From assembly GCA_017615955.1 (NCBI GenBank), contig JAFZZD010000500.1, forward strand, positions 1 to 23,420: DNA of 23,420 bases, given 5' to 3'. The notes under the pieces were generated by a model. The model worked only from the letters and a program-made list of their open reading frames with translations, was not told the DNA's origin and ran no database searches. The DNA comes from Victivallales bacterium. GTDB lineage: Bacteria > Verrucomicrobiota > Lentisphaeria > Oligosphaerales > Oligosphaeraceae. The position numbers and the translations under genes were made by a program. Shown here piece after piece: positions 349 through 20,447 of this stretch; position 1 is the stretch's first letter, and each line of letters starts with the position of its first letter.

Positions 349-2076
349 ATGAGCAGATTCGTAGAATTACCGGACGAAAATGTGACAATGGATGCCCTGA
401 TGGGCGCCGAGGATCAGAAGGCACGCGCACCGAAGGACGGCGAGATCGTGACAGGTCGCGTTGTAAACAAGAACGAAAAGGGAATATACCTTGACTTCGG
501 CTACAAGGGCGAGTCCTTTATTCCCCGTGATGAAATCCCGAACTGGGATGATCTCAAAGAAGGTGACAGCCTGGATGCGCAGGTTGAAATATCTGAAAGT
601 GATGACAGTTCAATGACATTGAGCGTGCAGAAGGCCAACATGCAGAAGGCATGGGAGGCCATAGTCAACAACCACCAGGAAGGCGGCACCATCCACGGTG
701 TGGTGCGCAGCTGCGTCAAGGGTGGTTTGATAGTGGATGTGGGCGTCGAGGCATTCCTGCCCGGCAGCCAGATTGACATTGCTCCCATCCGCAATCTCAA
801 CGACTACGTTGGTCTTGAGGAGGATTTCAAGATTCTCAAGATCAATGTGGAGCGCCGCAACATCGTCCTGAGCCGCAGGGAGATCCTGGAGGCCAACAGG
901 GAAGTTCAGCGTGGAAAACTGCTTGAGGATCTCCAGCCTGGCCAGATCCGCCGCGGAAAGGTCAAGAACATCACCGATTTCGGCGCATTCATCGATCTGG
1001 ACGGAATGGATGGACTTCTGCACATCACCGACATGAGCTGGGGCCGTATCACCCATCCAAGCGAAGTGGTCAAGCAGGACCAGGAAATAGATGTGATGGT
1101 TCTGGATGTGGACAAGACACGCCAGAGGGTCTCCCTGGGCATCAAGCAGATGTACGGCAATCCATGGGATACAGTTGATGTGAAGTATCCAAAGGGCACA
1201 CGCGTGAAGGGCAAGGTCGTGAACGTGATGCCATACGGTGCATTCGTTGAACTGGAAGACGGCATCGAAGGCCTGATCCATGTTTCCGAGATGTCCTGGA
1301 CAAAGAAAGTCAACCGCGCCGGCGATGTCCTCAAGGAAGGCGACGAGGTCGAGGCAATCGTCCTGGAAGTCAACAAGGCAAGCCGCAAGATATCCCTTGG
1401 CCTGCGCCAGACACAGGCCAATCCATGGGAAGTCATCAAGGAGAAGTACCCCAAGGGCACCCGCATCAAGGGCAAGGTGCGCAATATGACAGGCTATGGC
1501 GCATTCGTCCAGATACAGGATGACATCGACGGCATGATCCACGTTTCAGACATGAGCTGGAACCGCAAGATCAACCATCCAAGCGAGGTTCTTCAGAAGG
1601 GCCAGGAAGTGGAGGCCGTCATTGTGGATGTCGATACCGTCAACCAGCGCATCAGCCTCAGCATGAAGATGCTGTCCGATGATCCATGGAACTCCATCCA
1701 GGACAAGTACAAGGTTGGCGCCGTCGTCGAAGGCAAGGTAATGAAGCTGGCCAGCTTCGGCGCATTTGTGGAGCTGGAAGAGGGCGTGGATGGTCTTATC
1801 CACATTTCCGAGCTGAGCGACGAGCACGTCAACAAGGTGAAGGACTGTGTCCAGATCGGGGACATGGTGAAGTGCCGCGTAAAGAACATCAATACAGAAG
1901 AAAGGCGCATTGGCTTGAGCATGAGGGACGTGGATGGCCCATATCAGCCTGAAGCCGAGGAGCAGGCGCCGCAGCAGGCTGCCGCCTCCACTGGCAGCGC
2001 GTTCAGCAGCGCTTTGGACGAGGCCTTCTCGAAGGCTCAAAGCGAAGGCAACGGCGGCGAGGAAGAACAGAAGTAA
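349..2076 (+). CDS. rpsA: 30S ribosomal protein S1
   Basis: This is the mRNA-binding protein of the small subunit, which helps unfold and dock messenger RNA. The protein is 575 aa, slightly longer than the roughly 557 aa of E. coli S1. Six S1 (OB-fold) domains can be read at about residues 31-95, 112-176, 197-266, 282-353, 369-440 and 456-526. Domains 3-6 carry the usual G-x-F-V/I-x-L...G-L-I/L-H-x-S/T pattern; domains 1 and 2 are more divergent, as expected for the ribosome-binding part. The C-terminal tail (about 530-575) is Ala/Gln/Glu-rich and acidic. Only a weak AAGG lies 5' of the ATG, in an A/C-rich leader, which is common for rpsA. It appears monocistronic, with its own promoter upstream and a terminator just downstream. 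The identification is secure. Confidence 0.97.
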   Translation: MSRFVELPDENVTMDALMGAEDQKARAPKDGEIVTGRVVNKNEKGIYLDFGYKGESFIPRDEIPNWDDLKEGDSLDAQVEISESDDSSMTLSVQKANMQKAWEAIVNNHQEGGTIHGVVRSCVKGGLIVDVGVEAFLPGSQIDIAPIRNLNDYVGLEEDFKILKINVERRNIVLSRREILEANREVQRGKLLEDLQPGQIRRGKVKNITDFGAFIDLDGMDGLLHITDMSWGRITHPSEVVKQDQEIDVMVLDVDKTRQRVSLGIKQMYGNPWDTVDVKYPKGTRVKGKVVNVMPYGAFVELEDGIEGLIHVSEMSWTKKVNRAGDVLKEGDEVEAIVLEVNKASRKISLGLRQTQANPWEVIKEKYPKGTRIKGKVRNMTGYGAFVQIQDDIDGMIHVSDMSWNRKINHPSEVLQKGQEVEAVIVDVDTVNQRISLSMKMLSDDPWNSIQDKYKVGAVVEGKVMKLASFGAFVELEEGVDGLIHISELSDEHVNKVKDCVQIGDMVKCRVKNINTEERRIGLSMRDVDGPYQPEAEEQAPQQAAASTGSAFSSALDEAFSKAQSEGNGGEEEQK

Positions 2077-2082
2077 TCGAAT

Positions 2083-2107
2083 AGGGCATTGCCCTGTTTT
2101 TACTGTT
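2083..2107 (+). terminator. Intrinsic terminator of rpsA
   Basis: AGGGC-att-GCCCT forms a short stem six bases after the rpsA stop, followed by GTTTTTACTG and then T7. A second mini stem, CGCCA-aaa-TGGCG (2114-2126), follows the T run. The stem is short, so termination may be partial. Confidence 0.6.
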
Positions 2108-2135
2108 TTTTTCCGCCAAAATGGCGTTATTATGC

Positions 2136-2182
2136 TGTCAAACTGCCACTTTTCCAAAAAATTGGGACATGGCAGTTTGACA
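2136..2182. repeat. Long perfect inverted repeat overlapping the tuf promoter
   Basis: TGTCAAACTGCCA (2136-2148) and TGGCAGTTTGACA (2170-2182) are perfect 13-nt arms around a 21-nt spacer. The spacer itself holds CCAA-aaaa-TTGG. The right arm contains the whole -35 hexamer TTGACA. The repeat lies upstream of the inferred start site, so it would act as DNA (operator or cruciform) and not as leader RNA. It follows a T run but is not followed by one, so it is a poor terminator. Confidence 0.75.
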
Positions 2183-2204
2183 ATATGCGAAAAAGCCGTA
2201 TATT
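2177..2204 (+). promoter_or_regulatory. Strong sigma70-type promoter for tRNA-Thr/tuf
   Basis: TTGACA (2177-2182), a 16-nt spacer and TATATT (2199-2204) closely match the sigma70 consensus. Initiation near 2211 would start a transcript that carries a leader hairpin, tRNA-Thr and tuf. The extended box CAGTTTGACA recurs at the rpsL promoter (16993-17002). Confidence 0.8.
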
Positions 2205-2221
2205 AACGCCGTTTTTCTAGA

Positions 2222-2244
2222 AGTCCCCAGCGGAAAAGGGGACT
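2222..2244 (+). other. Leader hairpin before tRNA-Thr
   Basis: AGTCCCC (2222-2228) pairs with GGGGACT (2238-2244) around a 9-nt A-rich loop. It lies just after the inferred transcription start and ends 25 nt before tRNA-Thr. It could protect or process the 5' leader. No U tract follows. Confidence 0.45.
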
Positions 2245-2269
2245 GAAAAGAGGGCAATTTCGGGTGAAT

Positions 2270-2345
<76 letters not shown>

Positions 2346-2439
2346 TTCCTGTTGCTGGAGGAAGTATTTTTTTAGAAGACAGATAGTAGTGGGGGTTCAG
2401 CCCCCCAGGTTGAAGTCCCATTTAAAGAGGATTGAAAAA

Positions 2440-3660
2440 ATGGCTAAAGACGCAGGAAAGAAAGAAGTATTCAAGCGTGACAAGCCGCATGTGAACATCG
2501 GCACAATCGGTCACGTTGACCACGGCAAAACAACTTTGACGGCTGCAATCACAATGGTTCAGGCCAAGAAGTTCGGCGGCGATGTCAAGAGCTATAGCGA
2601 AATTGACAATGCACCAGAAGAAAAGGCACGTGGTATTACCATCAACACCGCACACGTGGAATATCAGACAGCGAAGCGCCACTATGCACACGTTGACTGC
2701 CCCGGACACGCGGACTACATCAAGAACATGATTACTGGTGCTGCCCAGATGGACGGTGCAATCCTGCTGGTTGCCGCAACAGATGGACCCATGGCCCAGA
2801 CACGTGAGCACATCCTCCTGGCCCGCCAGGTTGGTGTTCCTGCAATCGTCGTCTTCATGAACAAGTGCGACATGGTTGATGACCCAGAACTTCTGGACCT
2901 CGTTGAAATGGAAGTGCGCGAGCTGCTCTCCAGCTATGACTTCCCAGGCGATGAGATTCCGATCATCCGCGGTTCCGCTCTGAAGGCCGGCGAGGCCATC
3001 ATGGCAGGCAAGGATGTGGACTGCGAAGAGTGCAAGTGCATTACCGAGCTCATGGACGCAGTTGACAACTACATTCCCGAACCAGTCCGCCCATTGGATC
3101 AGCCTTTCCTGATGCCAATTGAAGACGTGTTCTCCATCGAAGGTCGTGGTACAGTTGTTACTGGCCGTGTCGAGCGTGGTGTCATCAAGGTCGGCGAAGA
3201 AGTTGAAATCGTCGGCATCAAGGACACTGTGAAGACCACAGTCACAGGCGTTGAAATGTTCCACAAGCTGCTTGACCAGGGCCAGGCCGGTGACAACATC
3301 GGTACTCTGCTCCGCGGCATCAAGAAGGAAGATGTGGAGCGTGGTCAGGTTCTGGCGAAGCCCGGCACCATCACACCTCACAAGAAGTTCACTGCGGCAG
3401 TTTACGTGCTGACCAAGGAAGAAGGTGGCCGCCATACACCATTCATGAATGGTTATCGCCCACAGTTCTACTTCCGTACAACTGACGTGACTGGCTCACT
3501 GCAGCTCCCAGAAGGTGTGCAGATGGTCATGCCTGGTGACAATATTGATATGACTGTTGAGCTCATCGCTCCTATCGCCATGGAAAAGGGTCTCCGCTTC
3601 GCTATCCGCGAAGGCGGCCACACCGTTGGCGCAGGTCGTGTATCTGAAATTATCGAGTAA
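2440..3660 (+). CDS. tuf: Elongation factor Tu
   Basis: This GTPase delivers aminoacyl-tRNA to the ribosomal A site. The ATG at 2440 is chosen over an in-frame upstream start because AGAGG precedes it and the protein then begins [11 protein letters not shown], giving 406 aa (E. coli 394). G1 GHVDHGKT is at 24-31, switch [13 protein letters not shown] follows, G3 DCPGH is at 86-90 and G4 NKCD at 141-144. Domains 2 and 3 are complete, ending in the [16 protein letters not shown] segment. A small insert near residues 190-200 carries three cysteines (C195, C198, C200). The gene is co-transcribed with tRNA-Thr. A GGGGG/CCCCC hairpin (2390-2407) lies in its leader. This is the only tuf seen here: the usual str-operon copy between fusA and rpsJ is absent. 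Confidence 0.98.
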
Positions 3661-3930: not shown

Positions 3931-4006
3931 AAGTGAGTAGCTCAATTGGTAGAGCGGTGGTCTCCAAAACCGCAGGTCGCAGGTTCGATCCCTGCCTCAC
4001 TTGCCA
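3931..4006 (+). tRNA. tRNA-Trp (anticodon CCA)
   Basis: A complete 76-nt tRNA with encoded CCA. The acceptor AAGTGAG pairs with CTCACTT, followed by discriminator G. The anticodon stem GTGGT/ACCGC holds loop CTCCAAA (anticodon CCA, codon UGG), and the T-arm is GCAGG-TTCGATC-CCTGC. The conserved setting is tRNA-Trp just before secE-nusG. Two T6 runs follow immediately (around 4008-4021). The 3' end TTGCCAAT (4001-4008) is complementary to ATTGGCAA at 4071-4078 in the secE leader. Confidence 0.95.
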
Positions 4007-17511: not shown

Positions 17512-17982
17512 ATGAGAAGACGTAAAGCTGAAAAGCGCCAGGTCATTCCAGACATCCGCTTCAATAGCGAGATAGTGGCGCGTCTTATCAACGCGGTCAT
17601 GGAGCGTGGCAAGAAGTCAACTGCGCAGGGCATAGTCTATTGTGCATTTGACATTATCAAGGAGAGCAAGGCAGACAGCGAGCCGATGGAAGTCTTCAAG
17701 CAGGCGCTTGAGAACGTCCGTCCCCGTCTGGAGGTCAAGAGCCGTCGTGTTGGTGGTTCCACCTACCAGGTTCCTCTGGATGTTCCGGAAGAGAGGCAGA
17801 TTGCCATCGCTCTTCGCTGGATCGTGAGTTTTGCCCGCGGGCGCAAAGGCGTTCCAATGGCAAAGGCACTGGCCAATGAAATCACTGATGCCTACAACAA
17901 CACAGGCAACGCAGTGAAGAAGAAGGACGATACCCACAGAATGGCAAACGCCAACAAGGCGTTCGCTCATTACCGCTGGTAA
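17512..17982 (+). CDS. rpsG: 30S ribosomal protein S7
   Basis: 156 aa, the primary binder of the 16S rRNA 3' major domain and, in E. coli, translational repressor of its operon. It starts [14 protein letters not shown], and includes [18 protein letters not shown], the [22 protein letters not shown] beta-hairpin region (read in two parts, about 68-90) and the C-terminal helices ending [15 protein letters not shown], all typical of the family. The length matches normal S7. AGGAAAG is the ribosome-binding site. Two hairpins follow, so the rpsL-rpsG transcript probably ends before the fusA-type gene. Confidence 0.97.
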
Positions 17983-18096: not shown

Positions 18097-20100
18097 ATGG
18101 ACGAAAGTCAAAAGGAACCCCTGGAGGAAGCAAGGCTTTCCCGCATACGAAACGTCGGCATCATTGCCCACATTGATGCAGGCAAAACCACCCTGACCGA
18201 AAGGATACTCTTCGCGACCGATGAGATTCGGATAATGGGAGACGTACCCGACGGCACCACAGTCACGGACTGGATGCAGCAGGAAAGGGAAAGGGGCGTC
18301 AGCATTGTGGCTGCCGCTGTCACCTGTCATTGGAGACAGTGCCAGATCAACATTGTGGACACCCCTGGACACATCGACTTCACTGCCGAGGTGGAACGGT
18401 CGCTTTGCGTGCTGGACGGCGTGGTTGCCGTGTTCTGCGCAGTGCGTGGCGTCCAGGCCCAGTCCGAGACAGTCTGGCGCAGGGCGCAAAACTACAGGCT
18501 TCCCGCGCTGGCCTTCATCAACAAGATGGACAGGCTGGGCGCCGATCCCTGGAAGGTGGTCAGGCAGATGCAGGAGACTCTGGGCATTGAAGCATTGCCT
18601 GTTCAGTTTCCCATCGGTGCTGGCTCTGGCTGGCAAGGCACATTGGATTTGCTGAACAAGCAGTGGAATGGGCCAGCGGAGAAGCCGGACATGGAGCCAT
18701 ACCAGGCGGAAATCCACGCGGCCAGGGAGCGGCTCATCGAGGTTCTTGCCGATGTGGACGAGCATGTAATGCAATGCTACGTTGATGGCGAGGAGCCAAC
18801 GGTGGAGGCATTGAGGCATGCGCTGCGGAAGGCGGTCATACGCCGCCGGGTGCTGCCGGTGTTCTTCGGCAGTTCGCTGCACAATGTGGGCGTAAAGAAG
18901 CTGCTGGATGGAATATGCCTTTACCTGCCATCGCCACTGGAGCACAAGGTGCTTCAGGACAGGGACTTCAAAGGCGGGGCTTCGGCACTGGTTTTCCGCG
19001 TAAGCAGACAGGGTGAGCAGAACCTGGCGTTTGTCAGGGTGCTCTCGGGTCTGGTTCGCCAGGGAACAGAGCTGAGGAATGCCAGGAATGGTGTCATAAG
19101 CAAGGTTGGCGGCGTATTCAGGGTATGGGCGGCGCAGTTCATACCGCAGGAAGGCGCCATACAGGGTGACATAGTTGCCATTTCCGGCAATTTGAACCGT
19201 GTTCGCACAGGTGATGTGCTGACGCCGCGGGACGCCCAGGTGAGGCTGCCCAGGCTGCACTTTCCGCAGCCAGTGGTGTCAATATTGCTGGAGGCCTGCG
19301 ATGGCAAGGCTGCCGAGCTGGCGGTTGCTTTGAAGCAGATGGCCAGCGAAGATCCCACCTTGCGGATAAGGCAGGACTATGCCACGGCAGCGTGGCAGGT
19401 CTCGGGAATGGGAGAGTTCCATTTGGAGGTCCTCCGCGAGAACCTGAGGCTGAACTTTGGAATAAATACCTTGGCCGGGAAGCCAAGGGTTGAATATGTG
19501 GAGACCATAAAAGGGGATGCGCAGGCAGGCGCCTCCTTTGAAAAGCGTCTCTACGATGGACGGCAGCTCAATGCAAAAGTGGAGTTGGAAATACTTCCAC
19601 TTGCAAGAGGGGCTGGCGTCAGACTGGATTTTTCCATGCTTGAAGGCAGGCTTTCCAAGGAAGGAGAGCAGGCGGTCAGGCAGGGGATTGCGTCAATCGT
19701 CAATGCGGACAGTTCAGGCTGCCCCTTGACGGATTTGAATGTGAAGGTGATATCAGCCTCCTCGGACGCAGGGGAGGCGAGTGAAGTGTCGTTGCTGAAC
19801 GCGGCGCGGCTGGCGATGGGCAAGGCTCTGGACTGTGCGTCCAGGGTGGTTCTGGAGCCAATCATGCTGCTGGATGTGAACACACCAGCTGCCACGTCAG
19901 GCAATGTGATTGCGGACTTGGCGGCAAGGAAGGCAAGGATTTCCACAGTTGAAAGCGTTGCCGAGGGCTTCACTCACATCGTCGCACACGTGCCTCTGGC
20001 CGAATTGTTCGGCTATGCCTCCTCGCTTCGGTCCTTGAGCGCCGGAAGAGGAGAAGCTGTGGCAGAGCCTGCAGAATATGCACCCCGTGCTACACTGTAA
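18097..20100 (+). CDS. fusA: Divergent elongation factor G homologue (EF-G2-like translational GTPase)
   Basis: 667 aa, shorter than usual EF-G (about 690-704). The GTPase domain is intact: AHIDAGKT at 24-31, the switch I segment [19 protein letters not shown] at 88-92 and NKMD at 142-145. Domains II, III and V align with EF-G, including [14 protein letters not shown] and the C-terminal [13 protein letters not shown]. Domain IV is altered: the GGRGQYGHV strand (read here as [11 protein letters not shown]) is lost, and the tip loop GSYHDVDSSE, holding the translocation-critical His583 of E. coli, is replaced by [11 protein letters not shown] (residues 553-563). The start has GGAGG 11 nt upstream. 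It occupies the fusA site of the str locus, but terminators separate it from rpsG. It could be a recycling-type or other specialised EF-G paralogue, with the true translocase elsewhere. The symbol is given for family and locus only. Confidence 0.85.
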
Positions 20101-20135: not shown

Positions 20136-20447
20136 ATGGCTGACAGTCAGAAAATCAGAATCCGTCTGCAGGCCTTTGAAAGCACAGTTCTGGACCAGTC
20201 CACGGCTGACATCGTGAACACGGTCAAGAGAACAGGCGCCAAGGTCGCAGGCCCCATTCCGCTTCCCACCAGGACGGAACGCTTCACCGTGAACCGCTCA
20301 CCACACGTTGACAAGAAGTCAATGGAGCAGTTCGAAATCCGTACGCACAAGCGTGTCATCGACATCATCAACCCCAACAGCAAGACAGTTGATGAGCTGC
20401 GCAAGCTTAATCTTCCTGCTGGCGTTGACATCATCGTCAAGATTTGA
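20136..20447 (+). CDS. rpsJ: 30S ribosomal protein S10 (NusE)
   Basis: 103 aa, head protein of the small subunit and partner of NusG/NusB in transcription-translation coupling and antitermination. [22 protein letters not shown] at the N-terminus (read in two parts), [24 protein letters not shown] with the long ribosomal loop (about 37-60), and the C-terminal [16 protein letters not shown] match the family over full length. AGAGG lies upstream. A GTAATTT/AAATTAC inverted repeat (20097-20117) covers the preceding stop codon. It is the first gene of the S10 cluster, and its stop lies 14 nt before rplC. Confidence 0.97.

Follow-up and report, generated by a model that had tools for sequence, protein, structure and literature searches.

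Several organisms are known to divide the work of elongation factor G (EF-G) between two copies. In Pseudomonas aeruginosa, EF-G1A, encoded in the str locus, is inactive in elongation and may act in recycling, and translocation is carried out by EF-G1B, encoded outside str (PMC3832671). In the spdEFG1/spdEFG2 pair of Borrelia and the EF-G1/EF-G2 pair of mitochondria, one copy has intact domain IV loops and a longer C-terminal tail, and the other has a changed loop 1 and a short tail (PMC3150367, PMC8203779, PMC9067457; these papers and the others below are cited from excerpts). The original fusA copy is assumed to retain its genomic context and a similar constraint in all bacteria (PMC3150367). 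Here we describe a str-locus EF-G, hereafter S, that has lost both tip elements of domain IV and has probably become a ribosome-recycling helper. It lies on a stretch of 23,420 nucleotides from a Victivallales bacterium of the Lentisphaeria (GCA_017615955.1, contig JAFZZD010000500.1), referred to as the window. T denotes a second, tip-intact EF-G and R an spdEFG2-like copy with an altered tip; G-numbers stand for genomes, L-numbers for EF-G-family loci and f-numbers for families, f1 being the family of the window.

S and T resemble the P. aeruginosa pair in that the str EF-G would not be the translocase, a second EFG I encoded outside str would be, and the str copy may recycle ribosomes together with the ribosome recycling factor (RRF); the proposed division thus has a functional precedent. 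The P. aeruginosa proteins, however, are 84% identical and the cause of their difference was reported as not found in the sequence (PMC3832671), whereas here the tip is gone and S is 39% identical to the T of the nearest relative. The likeness to the Borrelia and mitochondrial pairs lies in the contrast of loops and tails, T having the intact loops and the longer C-terminal tail, S the changed loop 1 and the short one. Unlike spdEFG2, S is an EFG I by descent and by locus, and its partner is of the EFG I type, without the KDG insertion in switch I; in family f11 the partner is spdEFG1, with S in the place of spdEFG2. EFG II proteins (Thermus EF-G-2, mycobacterial EF-G2) are, like S, diverged EF-G paralogues, but they lack RGITI and keep the domain IV loops, whereas S keeps a motif of the RG[IV]SI type, loses the loops and falls in a separate clade. 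With ordinary str EF-G (fusA), S shares locus, five-domain fold, GTPase motifs and ancestry; it differs in the loss of both domain IV tip elements, part of the G′ subdomain and the C-terminal helix, and in scoring below the EF-G model cut-off. S and T would be a variation on the already known translocation/recycling split. The expectation, voiced in an earlier sequence-only reading of the window, that altered EF-Gs are not usually the str copy needs qualifying in one respect, P. aeruginosa being a published exception (PMC3832671).

The gene and the altered elements are as follows.

18097..20100, plus strand: S, str-locus EF-G homologue with altered domain IV (open reading frame (ORF) and translation, 667 amino acids; Pfam domains G, II, III, IV and V all matched)
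19477..19842, plus strand: domain IV, about residues 461–582, fold kept and tip elements changed (Pfam EFG_IV at 463–581, 36.9 bits; AlphaFold)
19537..19596, plus strand: loop 1 strand of domain IV, residues 481–500, 20 residues of different sequence instead of a GGRGQYGHV-type strand
19753..19785, plus strand: tip loop 2 of domain IV, residues 553–563, 11 residues of different sequence instead of GSYHDVDSSE, with His changed to Asp

The replacement of GGRGQYGHV and GSYHDVDSSE and the loss of the tip histidine, first proposed from the letters of the window, are borne out by the ORF check, by a MAFFT alignment and by the other members of the family. In the alignment, a 13-residue strand of S occupies the place of E. 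coli GGRGQYGHV, with one additional residue in loop 1, and DG stands at two loop 1 glycine columns in the window and in G001, the nearest relative examined (S 97% identical, genome 78% complete). E. coli GSYHDVDSSE pairs without gaps with the altered tip, the histidine column being occupied by Asp, and AlphaFold models tip loop 2 as the end of a strand (547–556) and the start of a helix (559–581). S thus carries neither of the EFG I loop motifs, GGxGQYxHV and GSYHxVDSSE. That the tip histidine is present but displaced, which had been named as a possible refutation, can be rejected, since the window protein has no histidine near the tip and the alignment no gap there. To compare further copies, a tip was scored as intact if loop 1 had its Gly-Gly and the column of E. 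coli residue 583 a His, and as altered otherwise. By this fixed rule all 28 scored str copies of f1 are altered (His lost in 28/28, Gly-Gly in 27/28), including those of G001 and of the one-contig genome G009, and the tip loss is therefore due neither to chance nor to sequencing error.

The ancestry of S was addressed with a tree of 119 rows from which the domain IV columns had been removed; this and the other trees are quick trees with long branches. Fifty Lentisphaeria str copies (the window, 32 of the 40 altered and all 17 intact ones) form one clade (Shimodaira–Hasegawa-like approximate likelihood ratio test, SH-aLRT, 99), so that S falls among the EFG I proteins of its own lineage; it stands apart from the spdEFG2-like R clade, in a tree without named spdEFG2 or mtEFG2 rows. 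Two origins had been envisaged for S: divergence of the ancestral gene at its locus once another EF-G had assumed translocation, or replacement by the EF-G of another lineage. The nesting of S in the Lentisphaeria str lineage in a tree without domain IV favours the former, and relatives have T as the putative second translocase. For replacement one may cite the long branches and the modest identity (39–53%) of the str matches in relatives other than G001; but S lies inside the str clade, next to families with a graded erosion of the tip (f2 and, in f7, G035), and we consider replacement most improbable. The altered copies of f1, f2, f7 and f8 group together within the str clade (support 81, rising to 98 when the f2 copy is left out), whereas the altered f11 copies make up a second group, which implies that the tip was altered at least twice in Lentisphaeria. 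The T copies form a clade of their own (95 and 99 in two trees) adjoining non-str EF-Gs of two Verrucomicrobiota metagenome-assembled genomes (MAGs) and three Omnitrophota. Forcing T together with the Lentisphaeria str copies was rejected by the approximately unbiased (AU) test at p 2e-6, under a single model and with a group defined after the first tree. The idea that T arose by duplication of the str gene within the lineage is rejected on this test; T would be derived from another EF-G lineage.

The paralogues of the window are taken from G001, which has four EF-G-type genes: S (L001), T (L002), R (L003) and EFG II (L004). Its T has both loops intact (GGHGQYAHV and GSYHEVDSSE). The search for a second EF-G with a GSYH-type loop, proposed as a check in the sequence-only reading, thus succeeded in G001 and in 26 of the 29 f1 genomes, the match in G017 being partial. 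The same four genes stand on the single contig of G009, where S lies about 14 kb from tuf at 1.308 Mb and T is found at 4.533 Mb; S7 or S10 was found beside none of 39 T or spdEFG1 loci checked in the class. By the NCBIfam EF-G model TIGR00484 (cut-off 659.4 bits), T is a full EF-G (1020 in G001, 1015 in G002 and 1024 in G009), and S falls below the cut-off in the window (550.2) and in G009 (618). The T of G001 scores 871 bits against Thermus EF-G; the phmmer scores of the window protein are 470.7 with Thermus EF-G and 375.4 with mtEFG2. Among the ten EF-G matches of G001 there was no spdEFG1, T being EFG I-like without the KDG insertion. S therefore differs from spdEFG2, which occurs together with spdEFG1 where EFG I is absent, its companions in G001 being T, R and EFG II; it does share with spdEFG2 and EF-G2mt the changed loop 1 glycines (DG) and a short C-terminal tail (9 residues). 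RRF gave one match each in five of six genomes tested.

R has matches in 45 of 59 relatives at E 1e-155, those of G049 and G053 being their str copies, and was not found at this threshold in G002, G003 and G004, which have S and T. In G001 it lies on a contig of 3,561 bases in a MAG with 6% contamination; this R may be a contaminant, and guanine–cytosine content and tetranucleotide values do not set its contig apart from the others of G001. One further EF-G-family protein, L190 of G002 (contig C88, ORF 1495–3429, plus strand; 643 amino acids, 209.5 bits to the window protein), was omitted from the alignments.

Within Lentisphaeria, 57 str copies of the 59 relatives were scored, G028 (frameshift) and G033 (str EF-G absent) standing outside this number. 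Second-copy labels were assigned by hand from match lists and loop motifs, and 13 duplicate, fragment or other ORFs, including two pieces from G028 and L190, were dropped before alignment. The tip is altered in 40 of the 57, accompanied by T in 31, by spdEFG1 in 4 and by neither in 5, and intact in 17, with T in none, spdEFG1 in 3 and neither in 14. Some families show intermediate states: f2 keeps Gly-Gly and not His, and G035 of f7 keeps His and not Gly-Gly. In f11 the altered S is accompanied by spdEFG1 and by no spdEFG2-like copy. At the str locus of G033 in f5 (L280, G033:C38, about 2870–2950), S7 is followed after 64 bases by S10, with no EF-G between them; this genome has T, EFG II and a partial R (partial ORF, 49% identity), and no tip-intact EFG I-type gene other than T was found in it.

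Altered str copies also occur outside Lentisphaeria. The 31 outside genomes were picked from 61 loci so as to mix altered and intact copies, and hence not at random; the scored copy adjoins S7 in 24, and in the other seven S7/S10 was not seen. All ten altered str copies (Verrucomicrobiota 2, Chloroflexota 3, KSB1 2, a 'bacterium' grouping with KSB1 1, Fibrobacteres 1, Cloacimonadota 1) are accompanied by a second tip-intact copy, EFG I-like in five and spdEFG1 in five, as against 5 of the 14 intact ones, nine having none. Here the count of T covers any second tip-intact EFG I-like copy, and the only second copies seen to join the T clade of Victivallales are those of G060, G062 and the Omnitrophota. 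The seven genomes in which S7/S10 was not seen comprise four altered and three intact copies, with only EFG II-type copies besides. In the Entotheonella genomes G063 and G089 the arrangement is reversed, an intact copy (L228, L265) lying beside S12, S7 and tuf and an altered one (L044, L096) elsewhere. On the best tree of 80 str copies, a set without G048, G074, G076, G077, G078, G080, G081 and G083 (S7/S10 not seen), the state of the tip changes at least seven times.

What these proteins do may be approached from what is known of domain IV. During translocation, loop 1 reaches into the decoding centre; mutations in it impair elongation and hardly affect ribosome disassembly (Koripella et al., PMC8203779, citing earlier work), and changes of the loop 1 glycines are present in EF-G2mt and Borrelia EF-G2 (PMC8203779). 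The C-terminal helix and extension of EF-G1mt are longer than those of EF-G2mt and are thought to exclude RRF (PMC8203779), and E. coli EF-G H583K stalls at an intermediate of translocation (PMC4490557). One would therefore expect an EF-G that lacks the tip, retains its GTPase and ends in a short C-terminus to translocate poorly and to tolerate RRF. On balance we think that T translocates and that S is the ancestral str EFG I turned into a recycling-type GTPase working with RRF. A Lentisphaeria lineage would have gained T as a second tip-intact EF-G, to which translocation passed; S would then have lost the decoding-centre loops of domain IV, with a shrinking C-terminal helix, while retaining a ribosome-activated GTPase core and domain V. 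In its GTP form, S would occupy the factor site of a post-termination ribosome to which RRF is bound, and movement of domains III–V and the body of domain IV would turn RRF domain II into bridge B2a, splitting the subunits; S would no longer be able to move tRNA and mRNA. A recycling role gains support from the finding of S and T without R in G002, G003 and G004, and from f11, which has S and spdEFG1 without R.

Several observations weigh against this account. R, present in many relatives including G001, could recycle ribosomes, and it is better conserved than S (66.5% identity between G001 and G009, as against 52% for S between the window and G009). T may do both jobs, like an ordinary EF-G, and S is dispensable at least in G033, whose str locus lacks it. 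Five of the 40 altered genomes in Lentisphaeria have no second copy seen, all of them MAGs of 64–91% completeness, four with congeners that have T; G040, one of the 14 intact genomes with neither partner, has an unplaced tip-intact EF-G fragment (L286); and three of the four altered copies of f11 retain the tip histidine, loop 1 alone being lost. Outside Lentisphaeria, the str tip is intact in spite of a second EFG I in G068, G085 and G086, or of spdEFG1 in G073 and G075. The Cloacimonadota G074 and G078 (L077, L082; His to Asn) and the WOR-3 genomes G076 and G077 (L086, L090; tip and loop 1 lost) have altered EFG I copies, S7/S10 not being seen near them, with only EFG II besides; either EFG II translocates in these genomes or a copy is missing from the drafts. 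Finally, the counts are consistent with a link between tip loss and a second translocase, but the independent-pairs test on the 80 str copies is not significant (five pairs, of which on average 3.4 in the expected direction, 0 opposite and 1.6 without difference; p 0.125–0.5), and counting L286 as a second copy alters it little. The lowest codon adaptation of all the genes compared, considered next, is a further such point.

Alternatively, T may be a complete dual-function EF-G and S an eroding leftover, deprived of both classical jobs but with a minor or auxiliary ribosome-dependent GTPase role, such as splitting or clearing idle or stalled ribosomes; its position in the operon would account for its retention. 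S is indeed the fastest-evolving of the EF-G paralogues by sequence identity, its 52% comparing with 75% for T, 67% for R and 72% for EFG II (the last three between G001 and G009). Its codon adaptation to the ribosomal-protein genes is the lowest of the paralogues (0.584 in the window, 0.574 in G009, 0.586 in G002) and lies below that of all ribosomal-protein genes compared and of tuf (0.655–0.789, 0.608–0.784 and 0.618–0.847, respectively); T reaches 0.665, 0.717 and 0.685, R 0.642 and 0.730, and EFG II 0.724, 0.737 and 0.777, genes being left out one at a time only for the G009 and G002 sets; for the window set, the paralogues T, R and EFG II were taken from G001. Its absence from the G033 str locus, its frameshift in G028 and the offer of R as an alternative recycler in many genomes point the same way. 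On the other hand, S is under purifying selection, with a ratio of nonsynonymous to synonymous substitutions (dN/dS) of 0.075 between the window and the goat-rumen MAG RGIG3456, whose EF-G (L040; 97% identical) is the closest titled record (Nei–Gojobori script). The GTPase motifs are kept in 29/29 copies, the ORF is uninterrupted in 28 of the 29 f1 genomes, and the G domain and domain V are still the best conserved. We therefore regard the eroding leftover as rather unlikely, and return to S as a recycling GTPase.

Two further explanations bear on the other paralogues. S and R might share recycling, either under different conditions or interchangeably, so that either can be lost; the reciprocal pattern of S without R in G002, G003 and G004 and R (partial ORF) without S in G033 would fit. 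This pattern is, however, confined to four draft genomes (95%, 85%, 93% and 86% complete, in the same order) in which absences may be assembly gaps, and recycling by R is itself putative, so that shared recycling seems quite improbable to us. Alternatively, EFG II rather than T might be the main translocase, S having decayed for that reason. Its loops are intact (GKYHPVDSSE in L004), its codon adaptation is the highest of the paralogues, and in WOR-3 G076 and G077, whose altered EFG I was not seen at a str locus, EFG II is the sole tip-intact copy found. By model score, however, T is a full EF-G and the EFG II of G009 reaches 587, and EFG II does not track tip loss, since EFG II-type copies also occur in genomes with a tip-intact EFG I (G064, G067, G072 and G080–G084). 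We give this explanation very little credence, and continue to take T as the putative translocase. The codon adaptation of EFG II (L004, L186 and L187 of G001, G002 and G009), which is at the level of the ribosomal-protein genes, suggests that it may be an abundant factor in the Victivallales group.

The neighbouring genes and the remaining features of S are the following.

17512..17982, plus strand: rpsG (S7), upstream neighbour (ORF)
20136..20447, plus strand: rpsJ (S10), downstream neighbour (ORF)
18166..18189, plus strand: G1 P-loop AHIDAGKT, intact
18292..18306, plus strand: G2 motif RGVSI, with Ser for the usual Thr of RGITI
18358..18372, plus strand: intact G3 motif DTPGH, including the switch II His (29/29 copies)
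18520..18531, plus strand: G4 motif NKMD, intact (NKMD in 14/29, NKLD in 15/29)
18532..18819, plus strand: region from NKMD to the next helix (G′ subdomain, approximate limits), shortened (alignment)
20071..20097, plus strand: C-terminal tail of 9 residues, AEYAPRATL, without the C-terminal helix present in other EF-Gs

The window carries what we take, from the translated ORFs, to be the order rpsA–tuf–secE–nusG–rplKAJL–rpoBC–rpsL–rpsG–EF-G–rpsJ–rplC. S thus holds the str position after rpsG that is typical of EFG I, and S7 and S10 both adjoin the str copy in 56 of the 57 scored relatives. In the window tuf sits in the upstream block and not after EF-G, and it is flanked by genes for tRNA-Thr (GGT; 2270–2345), before it, and tRNA-Trp (CCA; 3931–4006), between it and secE.

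Over the 29 copies used for motif counts (the window and 28 of f1), G1 is AH[IV]DAGKT throughout, and G2 is RGISI in 22, HGISI in 3, RGVSI in 2 and RGISV in 2, always with Ser for Thr; the Ser is also found in a tip-intact copy of another family (L035). The retention of this motif and a position apart from the clade of L004, L187 and L240 set S outside EFG II, and a score of 362.6 bits against the NCBIfam tet_protect cut-off of 775 indicates by that test that it is not a Tet ribosomal protection protein. The shortness of about 30 residues noted at the outset was confirmed (667 amino acids, where 32 intact copies have a median of 702), the missing residues lying mainly in the G′ subdomain, the linker between G and II and the C-terminal helix. 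The G′ subdomain is the part usually linked to contact with L7/L12. Its region has a median of 97 residues in f1 and 105 in intact copies; much of it is also gone, as an alignment gap, in L119 and L123 (S of G012 and G021, members of one genus), the shortest f1 copy having 74 residues as against 105. The C-terminal tail has medians of 26 residues in T of f1 (13 copies), 25 in spdEFG1 (14), 18 in the intact str copies of the class (17) and 11 in S of f1 (20).

An AlphaFold model of S from a 50-row alignment (mean predicted local distance difference test score, pLDDT, 85.3; predicted template modelling score, pTM, 0.80) predicts that the five-domain EF-G fold is kept, that of domain IV included, while the tip elements differ; the structure prediction proposed earlier as a check thus agrees with tip loss on a preserved scaffold. 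The same reading had described domains G, II, III and V as normal, which stood for all but domain II, the least conserved domain of S: mean pairwise identities over 24 f1 genomes are 0.583 (G), 0.355 (II), 0.48 (III), 0.40 (IV) and 0.597 (V), the corresponding values for T being 0.79, 0.67, 0.77, 0.75 and 0.71. By domain, dN/dS of S is 0.056, 0.025, 0.108, 0.182 and 0.051 in the same order, highest in IV; in the same pair of genomes most of rpoC gives 0.022 and rplD 0.16. Pseudogenization or recoding of S in G012, G021 and G026 was considered and rejected, the flagged TGA being the natural stop reached by an extended alignment. In G028 (a MAG with 9% contamination), S (L129) has a single frameshift around 6223, either a true loss or an assembly error, and its second piece also lacks the tip motif; a further ordinary EF-G of this genome (L131) adjoins tuf.

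It is tempting to speculate that the altered str copies, in Lentisphaeria and beyond, share a single logic, in which a second tip-intact EF-G (T or spdEFG1) captures translocation and frees the str EFG I, which in many lineages becomes a tip-less recycling GTPase or is deleted. We advance this only tentatively. A search of open-licence PubMed Central, covering titles and the beginnings of abstracts, found neither a tip-less str EF-G in Lentisphaeria nor its recurrence. If translocase capture is real, recycling-only EF-Gs would be a convergent state reached repeatedly from EFG I rather than one ancient subfamily (spdEFG2). The str EF-G has been treated as a fixed reference translocase, a rule that 29 of 29 sampled f1 genomes break; in these groups it is not safely annotated as the translocase or used as a phylogenetic marker. 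The loss in f1, the graded erosion in neighbouring families and the excision in one of them together make up a natural series of tip-less EF-Gs, useful for testing what recycling by itself requires of the protein.

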